DNA of 28,702 nt, from positions 1 through 28,702 of the IMG/VR virus record IMGVR_UViG_3300030060_001008, one strand, 5' to 3'. The stretch comes from a virus. Position numbers and translations under genes: made by a program. The notes under the pieces were generated by a model, which was given only the letters and a program-made list of their open reading frames with translations, did no database searches and was not told where the DNA came from. This document shows, one piece after another, positions 1,109-6,089 of this stretch (within the stretch, counting starts at the first letter, position 1; each line of letters starts with the position of its first letter).

Positions 1109-1471
1109 ATGGGTGGAAGATCAAGCCAACAAAAGGGCAAAAGATTTGAATTATCTATTGCTAATAAATTAAAAGAATTATTTAACATTAAAGTAAGAAG
1201 AACTCCGCTTTCAGGCGGCATGGATTTCAAAGGTGACATTATTTGTATTGATGACAAAAGCATAATAAGTGAATTTAGTTTTGAATGTAAGAACCAAGAA
1301 AAGCTAAACATTTGGAAGGCATTAGAACAAAGTAGAAATGATGCACCACGTGGCAAAACACCATTAGTAGTATTTACTAAAAACTTTCAATTAGATTACT
1401 GTGCCATAGAATTAAATGACTTTTTAAATTTATTATTAGAACTTCAGGAATTTAGAAATGAACGTACTTAG
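1109..1471 (+). CDS. PD-(D/E)XK nuclease, Holliday-junction-resolvase-like
   Basis: The protein has 120 residues and shows a compact PD-(D/E)XK core: E13 in the first helix, D43 in the strand FKGDI, and E59-x-K61 in FECKN, preceded by RRTPLSGG, a basic loop usual in archaeal-type (Hjc-like) resolvases and related phage nucleases. By family it should cut branched or structured DNA, for example to clear recombination junctions before packaging. It starts two bases after the methyltransferase stop, and its 3' end overlaps the next methyltransferase gene by 14 bases, so it is embedded in the modification cluster. An alternative is a site-specific restriction or homing-type nuclease protected by the flanking methyltransferases. 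No second DNA-binding domain is visible, which favours the resolvase reading. Confidence 0.65.
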   Translation: MGGRSSQQKGKRFELSIANKLKELFNIKVRRTPLSGGMDFKGDIICIDDKSIISEFSFECKNQEKLNIWKALEQSRNDAPRGKTPLVVFTKNFQLDYCAIELNDFLNLLLELQEFRNERT

Positions 1472-2285
1472 TTTATTTGATGGCATGAGTTGTGGGCAGA
1501 TTGCTTTAAATAAAGCTGGCATAAAATATAATAAATATTTTGCTGCTGAAATTAAAAAACACGCCATTAAAGTAACACAACACAACTATCCAAACACAAT
1601 TCAATTAGGTGATGTAACAAAAATTAAAGCAAAAGATTTGCCACAAATAGATTTATTAATTGGTGGTTCACCTTGTCAAGATTTTAGTAGGGCTAACAAA
1701 GAACGTAAAGGAGTTGAAGGAACTAAAAGTAGTTTATTTTTTGAATATGTAAGAATATTAAAAGAATGTAAACCAAAATATTTTTTATTAGAAAATGTAA
1801 TTATGAGTAATTATAATTATTGGTTTATTTGTAATGAATTAAATTGTGAGCCAGTTAGAATATGTGGCAGCTTAGTTAGCGCTGCATTAAGAGATAGATT
1901 GTATTGGACTAATATACCACCTTTTAGCTATGATATAACTGGTAGATTAATTAGTAATATTCCACAACCTAAAGATAAATTAATAATGTTGCAAAATATA
2001 TTAGATTCAGGAACAACTAATAAAAGAAAACATACTTGTTTGAACACTTCTTCTGGTGTGGGTGGAAAACAAAAATATTTAATACATAGAAATAACACTA
2101 CTGGAATGATAACTTTAATAAATGAGGGCAACAAAGTTAGAACAGTAAATCAAAATGAATTAGAAAAGTTACATAATATTCCTAAAGGATATACAAATAT
2201 TTTAAATCAAAAAAAAGCGGGTGATTTAATTGGTGACGGTTGGACTGTTGATGTAATAACACATATATTTAAAAATATTAAATGA
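1458..2285 (+). CDS. DNA (cytosine-5) methyltransferase, Dnmt3/Dcm-like
   Basis: This 275-residue SAM-dependent enzyme methylates carbon 5 of cytosine. Motif I is LSLFDGMSCGQIAL (residues 4-17). Motif IV is GGSPCQDFS with the catalytic Cys73. Motif VI is LLENV (about 110-114). Motif VIII is RDRLYWTNI (145-153, R-D-R in place of QxRxR). Motif X is LIGDGWTVDVI (257-267). This variant set is typical of phage Dnmt3-like enzymes. The target-recognition part between VIII and IX (about 155-225) is short, making the protein smaller than most Dcm enzymes. It overlaps the nuclease gene by 14 bases, and its stop overlaps an ATG (2282) that opens only a nine-codon frame. In many phages such enzymes supply 5-methylcytosine for TET-type hypermodification; whether that applies here is inference. 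Confidence 0.93.
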   Translation: MNVLSLFDGMSCGQIALNKAGIKYNKYFAAEIKKHAIKVTQHNYPNTIQLGDVTKIKAKDLPQIDLLIGGSPCQDFSRANKERKGVEGTKSSLFFEYVRILKECKPKYFLLENVIMSNYNYWFICNELNCEPVRICGSLVSAALRDRLYWTNIPPFSYDITGRLISNIPQPKDKLIMLQNILDSGTTNKRKHTCLNTSSGVGGKQKYLIHRNNTTGMITLINEGNKVRTVNQNELEKLHNIPKGYTNILNQKKAGDLIGDGWTVDVITHIFKNIK

Positions 2286-2315
2286 AATCAAAAAAATTTA
2301 TAGTTTTGTAAGAAC

Positions 2316-2816
2316 GTGGATAAAAACAAAGTATTATCATTATTAGCTGAATATCATAATAAATGGATTTCAAATGTTGATGCTTTAATAAATGATGAAA
2401 ACATAGATGCTGAAGATATAGTACAAGATATGTATTTAAAAATTCATGGATCAAAAGATGAGGTAATAAAAAAAGCAATACAAAACAATAAACCACATAT
2501 TGGATATGTCAATAAAATTTTGTACACTATGTACTTAAAAGCGCAGAAAGAAGAAAGCATAAAAACAGAATTAAAAGATAATCATACAATAGAAACTAAA
2601 GAACCAGAAATAAACAAATTTAATATAGAAAAGAAGATAGATGAAATAGTAAATTCTTTTTATTGGTTTGATAGAAAACTATTTAATTTATATAGAAAGG
2701 AATTTCATACAATTCGGAGTTTAAGTAAAGCAACTAAAATTAGTCATGTAGTAGTACAAAACACCATAAGCAAGTGTAAAAAAAAAATTAAAAGAAAATT
2801 AAAAAATGAAATCTAA
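2316..2816 (+). CDS. Sigma-70-like RNA polymerase sigma factor (phage)
   Basis: The 166-residue protein has the layout of a small sigma factor. Residues 32-44, AEDIVQDMYLKIH, match the conserved region 2 helix pattern of ECF-type sigma factors (xEDxVQxxFLK). The C-terminal part, LSKATKISHVVVQNTISK followed by basic residues, looks like a region 4 helix-turn-helix that reads a -35 element. GTG at 2316 is the best start: no ATG lies between the upstream stop and the region 2 motif, and the N-terminus MDKNKVLSLLAEYH is plausible. The ATG at 2282 is in another frame and stops at 2311. The gene lies upstream of the terminase and tail genes, the usual place for a late regulator. Its targets could be the two 39-base repeats at 6110 and 14801 (inference). 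Confidence 0.68.
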   Translation: MDKNKVLSLLAEYHNKWISNVDALINDENIDAEDIVQDMYLKIHGSKDEVIKKAIQNNKPHIGYVNKILYTMYLKAQKEESIKTELKDNHTIETKEPEINKFNIEKKIDEIVNSFYWFDRKLFNLYRKEFHTIRSLSKATKISHVVVQNTISKCKKKIKRKLKNEI

Positions 2817-3171
2817 AGGTTTAGGAGATAGTATAGAAAAGATAACTAAAGCAACAGGAATAGATAAAGTAGCTAAATTTATATTAGGTGAAGATTGCGG
2901 ATGTGAAGCCAGAAAAGAAAAACTAAATAAACTATTCCCATATAAAAATGCTAAATGCTTAATAGAAGAAGAATACAACTATCTAAAAGAATTCTTCAGC
3001 AAACATAGAAACACATTAACCAACTTAGAACAAAAAGAACTATTAAAAATATTCAATAGAGTATTCAATGCCAAAAAAGAATCATCAAACTGCGGATCTT
3101 GTGTAAGGGACTTAATACAACAAATGAAAACTTTATACAAAACCTATGAAGAAGAAAACAAAGAAAAGTGA
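2806..3171 (+). CDS. Conserved phage protein of unknown function with cysteine pairs
   Basis: I do not know a function for this 121-residue protein. It opens with MKSKGLGDSIEKITKATGID and contains GEDCGCEARKEKLNKLFPY (about residues 28-46); the N-terminal half resembles conserved hypothetical proteins of marine Bacteroidetes phages. A second cysteine pair lies in SNCGSCVRDL near residue 97. The CxC and CxxC pairs could bind a metal such as zinc, but no complete known finger is formed. The rest is charged and helical. Its start overlaps the sigma-like gene by 11 bases, which suggests translational coupling. A role in regulation or DNA metabolism is possible from its place only. Confidence 0.8.
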   Translation: MKSKGLGDSIEKITKATGIDKVAKFILGEDCGCEARKEKLNKLFPYKNAKCLIEEEYNYLKEFFSKHRNTLTNLEQKELLKIFNRVFNAKKESSNCGSCVRDLIQQMKTLYKTYEEENKEK

Positions 3172-3295
3172 ACACAAAACAAGAAAAGAAACAGAACAAA
3201 AATTACTAATATATCTAAAGGAATATGAAAACAGAAAAAATAAAAATATCCAAGATAAAAAGGAATCCGAACAATCCGAGATTAATAAAGGATAA
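3146..3295 (+). CDS. Possible small lysine-rich protein (doubtful)
   Basis: An ATG frame of 49 residues starts inside the end of the preceding gene and runs into the ParB-like gene. The product starts MKKKTKKSEHKTRKETEQKL and is strongly basic and helical, then turns into low-complexity lysine, asparagine and glutamate. It covers the 53-base gap between its neighbours (3172-3224), which would otherwise be empty in a genome with almost no gaps. The 71-base overlap with the ParB gene and the composition bias, expected by chance in A-rich DNA, argue against it. Confidence 0.25.
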   Translation: MKKKTKKSEHKTRKETEQKLLIYLKEYENRKNKNIQDKKESEQSEINKG

Positions 3296-3851
3296 TAAAT
3301 TTCATAAACTTGTAAAGTCAATAAAAGAGTTTCCTGAAATGTTAGACATTAGGCCAATAGTAGTAAATGAAGAAATGATTGTGCTTGGTGGAAACATGAG
3401 ATTGAAAGCTTGTCAAGAAGCTGGACTAAAAGAAATTCCTGTAATCAAAGCAAGTGAATTAACAGAGAATCAACAGAGAGAATTTATAGTAAAAGATAAT
3501 GTTGGTTTTGGTGAATGGGATTGGGATATGATAGCTAATGAGTGGGATAATGACATACTTGATGAATGGGGTTTAGATATTCCCATAGATAAAAAAATAG
3601 ATGAATTAGAAGATGATGATGAAATAGAATTACCTCAATCTGTACAATTAGAGCCACCAAAAGAATATATTTTAATTATGGCAGAACCAAACAGTGTTGA
3701 ATGGGAAGAATTAAAAGAAAGTTTACAACTCAAAATGGTTAAAAATGGTGGTTATAAAAAAGGTAGTCCATTTGAAAGTGCAAGTATTGAAAGAGTATTA
3801 TGGTGGAATGAATTTAAAAAAAGAATAAATGATAATAGCAGTACCAAGTAA
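3225..3851 (+). CDS. ParB/Srx-fold domain protein
   Basis: The protein has 208 residues. Residues 1-75 carry a ParB N-terminal (sulfiredoxin-like) domain: KISKIKRNPNNPR, then PIVVN and VLGGNMRLKACQEAGLKEIP, which contains the GxxR nucleotide-binding loop of CTP- or ATP-using ParB-like proteins. The second part has WDWDMIANEW-type acidic and tryptophan-rich segments and ends with a domain containing WEELKESL and NGGYKKGSPF. There is no ParB helix-turn-helix or ParA partner, so a partition role is unlikely. Such proteins are common in phages beside terminases and DNA modification genes. It overlaps the downstream glycosyltransferase gene by 23 bases, suggesting a linked function in DNA modification or packaging. 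Confidence 0.82.
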   Translation: MKTEKIKISKIKRNPNNPRLIKDNKFHKLVKSIKEFPEMLDIRPIVVNEEMIVLGGNMRLKACQEAGLKEIPVIKASELTENQQREFIVKDNVGFGEWDWDMIANEWDNDILDEWGLDIPIDKKIDELEDDDEIELPQSVQLEPPKEYILIMAEPNSVEWEELKESLQLKMVKNGGYKKGSPFESASIERVLWWNEFKKRINDNSSTK

Positions 3852-4554
3852 AGGCAGAGCTGGATTAACTACAACTAATAAAATTTTTAAAAATTCAGCT
3901 ACATTTTTTATTCCTAAAAGTGAATATCACCAATATAAATCTATTGTAAAAAATATTGAATGTGTACCTAATGAAGTACAAGGAATAACAGCAACAAGAA
4001 ATTATATATTAAATAATTCTAATGATAAAAGGGTTGTTATGTTAGATGATGATATTAAAAAAATTGGATATGTAAAAAGAAATGAAAGAAATGTAAATCA
4101 TATTAATCTAAAAAAATATGATGAGTATTTTTGGATAGATGAGTTTAATAAATATTTTGAATTAACAGAACAATTAAATTATAAAATTTGGGGAGTAACA
4201 ACAGATGATAGTACAAGAAGTGCTTATAGTTATAAACCAATTATGTTTAAAACATATGCTTTAGGCTCTATAATGGGAATCATAAATGATAAAGAATATT
4301 TATTTGATGAAAGCTTTTTAGTAAAAGAAGATTATGAAATATGTTTAAGGCATATTAAAAATAAAGGTGGCATACTTGGAATAAAATATTTATACTGGGC
4401 AAACAAACATTATAAAGATGCTGGTGGTTGCAAAGATTATAGAACAGTAAATATGGAAAAAGAATGTATTAAAAAATTAATAAATCTTTATCCTTCAATG
4501 ATAGCAAAAGTAAAAAGAAAAGGTACAGAATTTGGAATAACTTTAACAATGTAA
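3829..4554 (+). CDS. Glycosyltransferase resembling the TET/JBP-associated (TAGT) family
   Basis: This 241-residue protein begins MIIAVPSKGRAG, contains GITATRNYIL (52-61), and has a DDD metal and sugar-nucleotide motif at 73-75 after the strand RVVML, the GT-A arrangement. Later it has KEDYEICLRH (166-175), the acidic segment before the acceptor site, and NKHYKDAGGC (192-201). This set matches, from memory, the phage TAGT family, predicted to add sugars to hydroxymethylated pyrimidines in DNA. No signal peptide or membrane segment is present, so it acts in the cytoplasm. It overlaps the ParB-like gene by 23 bases and lies just upstream of the terminase. No TET/JBP dioxygenase is visible in the window, so its acceptor is unknown. 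Glycosylation of a protein or another substrate remains possible. Confidence 0.72.
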   Translation: MIIAVPSKGRAGLTTTNKIFKNSATFFIPKSEYHQYKSIVKNIECVPNEVQGITATRNYILNNSNDKRVVMLDDDIKKIGYVKRNERNVNHINLKKYDEYFWIDEFNKYFELTEQLNYKIWGVTTDDSTRSAYSYKPIMFKTYALGSIMGIINDKEYLFDESFLVKEDYEICLRHIKNKGGILGIKYLYWANKHYKDAGGCKDYRTVNMEKECIKKLINLYPSMIAKVKRKGTEFGITLTM

Positions 4555-4558
4555 TAAA

Positions 4559-4903
4559 ATGGCAAATGAACAAAACTTAAATCCTTTTAAAAAAGGACAA
4601 TCAGGCAATCCAGCTGGAAGGCCTAAAGGAAGTAAAAATAGAAGTACAATAGCAAGAAAGTGGTTAGAAGCTACTGAGAAATCTAAGAATCCTATAACTG
4701 GTGAATTAGAAGAATTAACGCAAGAAGATATAGGAACACTGGCATTGATTAAAAAAATGCGCCAAGGAGATGTAAGAGCATATAAAGAACTAATGGATTC
4801 ATTATATGGAACTGCAAAAGAAACTATTGATTTAAATACTAATGATGTGGGTATTGATTTTGATGAATTAATGGAAGCAATGAAAAAGAATGGTAAACAA
4901 TAA
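4559..4903 (+). CDS. terS: Terminase small subunit candidate (DUF5681-like)
   Basis: The 114-residue protein begins with NPFKKGQSGNPAGRPKGSKN (residues 8-27), the signature of the DUF5681 family found directly upstream of phage large terminases. The basic N-terminus followed by a helical stretch (RSTIARKWLEATEKS) would suit DNA binding. By position it should recognise the packaging site and load the large subunit. Its 3' end overlaps the large terminase gene by 14 bases. No classical helix-turn-helix can be drawn with confidence, so the name rests on family signature and position. Confidence 0.8.
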   Translation: MANEQNLNPFKKGQSGNPAGRPKGSKNRSTIARKWLEATEKSKNPITGELEELTQEDIGTLALIKKMRQGDVRAYKELMDSLYGTAKETIDLNTNDVGIDFDELMEAMKKNGKQ

Positions 4904-6089
4904 ATTTTTAGTTCTTAGCAATCCATCAAGATACTTTATATATACCGGGGGCAGAGGTTCTGGCAAATCATTTGCAGTTTCCTTTTTAGCTTTAATGCTA
5001 ACAATATCAAAAGAAAGGCATAAGATTTTATTTACAAGATATACTTTGAGGTCTGCTGCTATTTCAATTATTCCTGAATTTAAAGAAAAAATAGATTTAT
5101 TAAATTACAATAATTTATTTCATATAACTAAAGATGAAATAATATGTAAAGATACTGGAAGCAAGATTTTATTTAGAGGTATTAAAACAAGTTCGGGAGA
5201 CCAAACTGCAAATCTAAAATCATTACAAGGTATAACAACTTGGATAATAGATGAAGCAGAAGAAATGGTTGATGAAGATATATTTGATAAAATAGATTTA
5301 AGTGTAAGGCAACAAGGAATTAAAAACAGGGTTATCATGATAATGAACCCAGCAACTAAGGAACATTGGATTTATAAAAGATTTTATGAAGATAAAGGTG
5401 TACAAGCTGGAATGAATGGAACTAAAGGAAATGTAACTTATTGTCATAGTACTTATTTAGATAACATTGAAAACCTAAGCGCAAGTTATATAGAACAAAT
5501 AGAAAGCATGAAAGAAAGAAGGCCAAGTAGATACAAGCATACTATACTTGGTTCATGGTTAGATAAAGCTGAAGGAGTTATATTTACTAATTGGAAAATA
5601 GGAAAGTTTAAACAAGTAGGTAAAAATGTATTTGGCCAAGATTATGGATTTAGCAATGACCCTACAACTTTAGTACAAACCAATATAGATAAAGAGAATA
5701 AAGTTATTTATGTTAAGTTATGTTTTTACCAACCTAAACTAACTACAAGTGATATAGCAACACTAAACACTAAATTTGCAAATAGAGATTTAATAGTAGG
5801 TGATTCAGCCGAACCAAGATTAATTTCTGAGTTAACAAGAAACAATAATATAGTAGCAGCAATAAAAGGCCAAGGTTCAATAACTTATGGCATTAGCTTA
5901 TTGCAAGATTATGATTTAATTATTGATGAAGAAAGTACAGATTTAATTAAAGAACTAAATAACTACTGTTGGTTAGAAAAGAAATCACAAACACCAATAG
6001 ATAAATTTAATCATGCTATTGATGCTTTAAGATATGCAGTTAGCTATCAATTACAGAATCCAAATAAAGGTGAATATCATTACTATTAA
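4890..6089 (+). CDS. terL: Terminase large subunit
   Basis: This 399-residue motor packages DNA into the prohead and cuts the concatemer. Walker A is GGRGSGKS (20-27). Walker B is TTWIIDE (116-122) with catalytic E122. The coupling segment VIMIMNPA (148-155) follows. The C-terminal RNase-H-fold nuclease has acidic residues in FGQDYGF (D251), VGDSAEP (D305) and HAIDALRYA (D378). The order and length match PBSX-type large terminases (Terminase_3). The ATG at 4890 overlaps the small subunit gene. It is followed by a short gap with the first 39-base repeat. In most phages the portal gene comes next, but here the portal is 11 kb downstream. Confidence 0.96.
   Translation: MVNNKFLVLSNPSRYFIYTGGRGSGKSFAVSFLALMLTISKERHKILFTRYTLRSAAISIIPEFKEKIDLLNYNNLFHITKDEIICKDTGSKILFRGIKTSSGDQTANLKSLQGITTWIIDEAEEMVDEDIFDKIDLSVRQQGIKNRVIMIMNPATKEHWIYKRFYEDKGVQAGMNGTKGNVTYCHSTYLDNIENLSASYIEQIESMKERRPSRYKHTILGSWLDKAEGVIFTNWKIGKFKQVGKNVFGQDYGFSNDPTTLVQTNIDKENKVIYVKLCFYQPKLTTSDIATLNTKFANRDLIVGDSAEPRLISELTRNNNIVAAIKGQGSITYGISLLQDYDLIIDEESTDLIKELNNYCWLEKKSQTPIDKFNHAIDALRYAVSYQLQNPNKGEYHYY

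Follow-up and report, generated by a model that had tools for sequence, protein, structure and literature searches.

Every system of phage DNA glycosylation that we know of builds on a base already carrying a hydroxyl or hydroxymethyl group. Here we consider two genes of the virus record IMGVR_UViG_3300030060_001008, encoding a ParB-like adaptor (3225-3851) and a TAGT-family GT-A glycosyltransferase (3829-4554), both on the plus strand. The whole 28.7-kb record is referred to below as the window; it is probably a fragment, as its first gene is cut and its last genes are replication genes. The closest described systems are the phage ParB-TET/JBP-TAGT(-PIG-L) operons (locus L008 and its relatives, Mycobacterium phage Acadian, Arthrobacter phage Lilmac1015; labels with L or G denote related loci or records compared with the window), in which the TET gene lies exactly between those of ParB and TAGT. 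As in these operons, the ParB-like gene of the window is situated upstream of the TAGT gene, and, as in L008, the TAGT gene directly precedes the terminase, while in Acadian one PIG-L gene stands between the two; however, TET separates ParB and TAGT in the operons, whereas their genes overlap in the window, where no TET was found. The beta-glucosyl-HMC-alpha-glucosyl-transferase of phage T6 (ggt; PHROG 842, also filed as TAGT) belongs to the same Pfam and PHROG family as the window protein. The T2/T6 enzyme attaches a second glucose to glucosylated hydroxymethylcytosine (PMC13216743). The ggt gene adjoins the deoxycytidylate (dCMP) hydroxymethylase gene 42, and its product needs a prior glucosyltransferase, whereas no such hydroxymethylase is seen in the window, and the two enzymes fall in separate clades.

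We conclude that the two window genes form a single pair, within a lineage of phage TAGT enzymes that has long been TET-less; judging by sequence comparison, the ParB-TAGT pair without TET is conserved in dozens of phages.

ParB-TAGT pairs in related loci

A ParB-like gene precedes the TAGT gene in 80 of the 85 loci, at a distance of no more than 100 bp in 71 of these, frequently with overlapping ends; three of the remaining five loci are cut off, and two have no ParB. These counts include related sequences, and most of the records, the window among them, are fragments. The end of the ParB-like gene and the start of the TAGT gene share 23 bases in the window (3829-3851), which probably reflects translational coupling; a similar overlap is seen in many relatives. 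When the neighbourhoods were compared, no gene other than ParB consistently adjoined TAGT. Both genes evolve under purifying selection, the ratio of nonsynonymous to synonymous substitution rates (dN/dS) being 0.02-0.17, and 0.07-0.14 for the TAGT gene against its close relatives. In most neighbourhoods the pair is followed by terminase subunits, and as these terminases belong to several unrelated clusters or families, it seems that the two genes have travelled together from one packaging module to another.

The 3225-3851 protein matches ParB_N (PF02195) with 35.5 bits, the cut-off being 26.3. It has a ParB/sulfiredoxin fold in the N-terminal half and a conserved C-terminal part (QSVQLEPPKEYILI ... 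GGYKKGS ... ERV), and seven residues (N17, S32, G56, N92, Y148, L169, R190) are invariant across 32 relatives. Its AlphaFold2 model is weaker than that of the glycosyltransferase (predicted local distance difference test, pLDDT, 78; predicted template modelling score, pTM, 0.51), and the N-terminal part matches the ParB-CTP/CDP and sulfiredoxin structures. A further match is to ParB-methyltransferase proteins of phages, in their ParB portion (phrog_498, E 7e-29). As ParB precedes TET in the TET-linked relatives as well, the partners of this protein are likely to be enzymes acting on DNA.

The third gene, 1458-2285 (plus strand), encodes a Dnmt3-like C5-cytosine methyltransferase (PF00145, E 1.8e-38). 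Among solved structures DNMT3A/3B match it best, along its whole length (E about 1e-29), with HaeIII behind at 1.5e-17. In the closest relative, L003, whose glycosyltransferase is 98% identical and whose gene order is the same, the methyltransferase is missing from between the PDDEXK and sigma-like genes, its neighbours in the window. The enzyme occurs in 5 of the 47 records examined and is absent from 42. The C5-methyltransferase is an accessory neighbour, and the real unit is the ParB-TAGT pair, not a cassette of three genes. The initial annotation had joined the methyltransferase, the ParB-domain protein and the glycosyltransferase into a possible cassette of this kind next to the terminase and without a visible TET. 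The coordinates and reading frames of the three genes were correct, the identity of the methyltransferase was borne out, and the ParB partner, with its match above the cut-off, the glycosyltransferase, the terminase linkage and the lack of TET stand; the grouping with the methyltransferase does not.

The neighbourhood of the pair varies. In G045 and G046 (L080, L081) two tandem TAGT genes follow ParB, and in G046 a class I S-adenosylmethionine (SAM) methyltransferase gene lies between ParB and the first TAGT. In G050, G051, G044 and L084 ParB-TAGT is immediately preceded by PIG-L deacetylase and WbqC genes and followed by an MgsA_C-like gene. Overall, the sugar-tailoring neighbours in relatives include PIG-L, WbqC and UDP-glucose dehydrogenase.

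Family and fold of the glycosyltransferase

The 3829-4554 protein matches the TAGT profile PF20691 over residues 1-200 with 40.5 bits (curated Pfam cut-off 27.5), so that both the assignment to TAGT with its motifs and the comparison with the family profile suggested in the initial annotation came out in favour of this family; the motifs listed there (VPSKGRAG, ITATRN, DDD, KEDYE) were all found again. It matches phrog_842, the class of T6 ggt, at 4e-21, far better than phrog_25200, the PHROG of the TET-linked TAGTs; a phmmer search against PDB sequences yielded no match. Across 50 relatives R10, R57, D73-D75, E167, G199-G200 and R205 are invariant. D73-D75 form the metal/nucleoside diphosphate (NDP)-sugar motif, and E167/D168 the putative base region.

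The fold predicted by AlphaFold2 (pLDDT 88.5) is GT-A, consistent with the initial assignment: Foldseek yields GT-A matches to TarP, TarS and WrtF, VIA-align yields GT-A matches including GalNAc-T and cellulose synthase with Z up to 14.9, and the viral TAGT models of BFVD align with the model at a template modelling (TM) score of about 0.8. One more match, AvpGT (Z 13.0), is a nucleoside 3'-O-glucosyltransferase (PMC11959488). It was considered as a pointer to a 3'-OH acceptor and rejected, as it is among the better matches, but not above the others.

The residues D73-D75, E167, D168 and G199-G200 are common to the TET-linked and TET-less clades, and K8, P137, W190, H194 and some others are specific to the window clade. 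A changed acceptor could be read in these clade-specific positions, although neutral divergence would give the same picture.

Search for an enzyme making the acceptor

The Pfam TET/JBP profile found no member in 49 records, nor in the window and L003-L007, nor in the phages Ariadne and Javan291, nor in four whole bacterial genomes with loci related to ParB-TAGT. Since actinophage TETs score low with this profile (21-25 bits), a broader TET profile was built, which recovered the left-out Acadian at 2e-10 and Lilmac1015 at 3e-12. In 45 genomes or records it found, besides these two controls, only the record of L008 itself; the window was negative. The family PF00303, covering both dCMP and dUMP hydroxymethylases, was found in none of the 47 records, the window being a fragment; PF01702 (TGT) was absent from 49 records, although such a family search is no test for every DpdA; and radical SAM PF04055 was absent from 46 records.

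Exact terminal repeats of 77-127 bp are present in five records (G014, G026, G038, G041, G046), the first three of which are members of the window clade. In G026 the repeat measures 77 bp and, judged by eye, resembles the 3' end of a tRNA, as would be expected at prophage attachment sites. Besides records with terminal repeats, the window clade contains a prophage that looks complete. No oxygenase or hydroxymethylase appears among all the Pfam families listed for G041 and G046 (genes longer than 60 amino acids), nor in the Pfam scans of the non-structural genes of G026, which carries a dCTP deaminase, and of a part of G014, though a missing Pfam match does not equal a missing function.

In the TAGT tree (65 rows; it is unrooted, so the direction, TET loss or gain, is not readable from it) nine TET-linked TAGTs form one clade with support 100/100, and the window clade comprises 41 TET-less rows (98/99). 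Two further TET-less groups stand apart (100/99 and 97/89). Two TET-linked rows cluster (100/99) with T6 ggt and with the ctUhy936 protein, which is linked to a hydroxymethylase. One more TET-linked row, L173, sits among the TET-less ones on a very long branch, and its placement is not to be trusted. Given the absence of TET throughout the clade, the records with terminal repeats and the mostly separate position of the TET-linked TAGTs, the sequences indicate that the window is not merely cut off from its TET, but belongs to a TET-less lineage.

The initial annotation had seen no TET in the window, which both profiles confirm, and offered three explanations. A TET outside the window is disfavoured, as the whole clade, including the terminal-repeat records, lacks it, and no room is left for it between ParB and TAGT. 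Supply of the acceptor by a known hydroxymethylase is disfavoured for the phage side, since two TET profiles and PF00303 were negative. This leaves an acceptor not yet described as the one possible alternative of the three.

Two other enzymes were considered. A DpdA/TGT protein in the TET slot was dropped, as gp2 of Acadian, annotated as queuine tRNA-ribosyltransferase, is a divergent TET/JBP by Pfam. This gene (L180, 813-1691; PHROG 6059) stands in the order ParB-TET-TAGT-PIG-L-terminase, and its PHROG label looks wrong. Radical SAM as a general replacement of TET was rejected, since it is known from one case only: in L187 (2429-5843), a Lachnospiraceae metagenome-assembled genome, ParB-TAGT is followed by a radical-SAM protein and a protein with the N-terminal domain of S-adenosylmethionine synthetase (MetK-like). 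The radical-SAM neighbour is another possible acceptor-making enzyme beside TAGT.

Possible targets and acceptors

Given the TAGT family, the ParB partner and the linkage to terminase, phage DNA is the most likely target of the pair. As no known maker of hydroxymethylpyrimidines was found in the lineage, either the first enzyme is an unrecognised one or the acceptor chemistry is new; we hold these two possibilities close and place a non-DNA target third.

Our tentative preference is that the ParB-TAGT pair glycosylates phage DNA at an acceptor made by neither TET nor a known hydroxymethylase. The ParB-like protein, with its CTPase/sulfiredoxin-type fold, would recruit the glycosyltransferase to phage DNA around the time of packaging, and the GT-A enzyme would use an NDP-sugar of the host or phage as donor and transfer its sugar to a DNA nucleophile other than a hydroxymethyl group of the TET or thymidylate-synthase type. 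The acceptor might be an exocyclic amine, on either an ordinary or a methylated base, a terminal hydroxyl, or else a base with an oxidation of a kind not described so far; DNA glycosylated in this manner could resist nucleases. The stricter version, that a ParB-guided phage enzyme puts the sugar directly on DNA with no prior hydroxymethylation (for instance, on an exocyclic amine or an end hydroxyl), is possible, but on the unlikely side.

Several points weigh against this preference. No GT-A enzyme known to us glycosylates an unmodified DNA base directly. The enzyme retains the acidic ED motif characteristic of O-glycosyl transfer, and this motif suits a hydroxyl acceptor more than an amine; an enzyme family outside Pfam could make the hydroxyl. 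The adjacency of ParB is not absolute: it is lacking in G014, which also carries ThyX. Finally, the reading is drawn from sequences and models, mostly of fragmentary records.

A first rival reading is that a phage or host enzyme family missed by the profiles supplies an ordinary hydroxymethyl (or hydroxy) pyrimidine as acceptor, so that the pair would belong to a standard hypermodification system with an unrecognised first step. We consider this somewhat unlikely. Several other TAGTs do adjoin a source of hydroxymethyl groups (TET; gene 42 in the case of T6 ggt; a PF00303 protein in that of the ctUhy936 TAGT), the L187 locus suggests that other first enzymes may exist, and the conserved ED motif fits a hydroxyl acceptor. 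However, ParB alone consistently adjoins TAGT, both TET profiles are negative, and neither the G041 and G046 family lists nor the non-structural genes of G026 contain a candidate oxygenase or hydroxymethylase.

Alternatively, the glycosyltransferase could modify a protein (ParB, terminase or a virion protein) or a host glycan, with the ParB link serving recruitment or regulation. That no source of a hydroxymethylated acceptor was found agrees with this, and the enzymes with the nearest solved folds use polypeptides, teichoic acid or glycans as sugar acceptors; yet similarity of GT-A folds is uninformative on the acceptor, sequence and tree put the enzyme among DNA-associated TAGTs, and ParB is also a partner in the TET operons and in fusions with DNA methyltransferases. 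We regard such a target as unlikely.

Far less credible is the three-gene cassette, in which the C5-methyltransferase would make 5-methylcytosine, a TET outside the window would oxidise it, and TAGT would glycosylate the product: the three genes do lie within 3.1 kb of a fragment, but the methyltransferase is rare in the records examined, no record of the clade has a TET, and the ParB/TAGT overlap leaves no slot for one. That the pair is a decaying remnant, ParB and TAGT having stayed behind after TET was lost, is the least probable of all, in view of the low dN/dS, the intact motifs and the wide divergence of the 41-row clade.

Thus, a well-populated and conserved glycosyltransferase lineage keeps its ParB partner and its place before the terminase without a recognisable base-maker, even in records with terminal repeats; there is either an unrecognised first enzyme or a new acceptor chemistry. 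If direct transfer is true, it would be a new class of DNA modification spread across many phage lineages.

Other genes of the locus

The TAGT gene is followed on the plus strand by a candidate for the terminase small subunit (DUF5681; 4559-4903; PF18932, 59.1 bits), whose role is suggested by its position before the large subunit (4890-6089; PF04466, 123.7 bits; PF17288, 75 bits). At the other end, 2-442 and 444-1106 encode tandem paralogous DNA methyltransferases of the N6/N4 type (phrog_67), the first truncated by the window edge; together with the C5 enzyme, the phage has three methyltransferases. A small sigma-factor-like gene upstream of ParB-TAGT (2316-2816) recurs in the window's nearest relatives, L037/G016 and L036.

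Comparison with known systems

Compared with the TET/JBP-TAGT systems, the window, a fragment, has the ParB-like gene directly upstream and no TET/JBP dioxygenase; the thymidylate-synthase-fold hydroxymethylase of the T-even type is likewise absent from it and from all 47 records. Distant TET-less relatives occur in cultured hosts, among them prophage-like loci of Pontibacter mangrovi HB172049 and Flavobacteriaceae Ap0902 and, as a divergent member, Quhwahvirus isolates of Microbacterium foliorum, so the question of the acceptor can be answered by nucleoside mass spectrometry. A ParB-glycosyltransferase pair without TET, as in the window, is present, in a complete genome, in Microbacterium Quhwahvirus (gp92-gp94 of Ariadne and relatives, 56 records). 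Unlike the window, it has a UDP-glucose dehydrogenase gene downstream and no adjacent terminase, and the Ariadne glycosyltransferase, very divergent, below recognition by PF20691 and with a weak match to phrog_842, is only a possible TAGT member. Streptococcus phage Javan291, deposited as a complete record, has the same order as the window, ParB-TAGT-terminase without TET, although its TAGT is about 25% identical to the window protein and belongs to a different clade.

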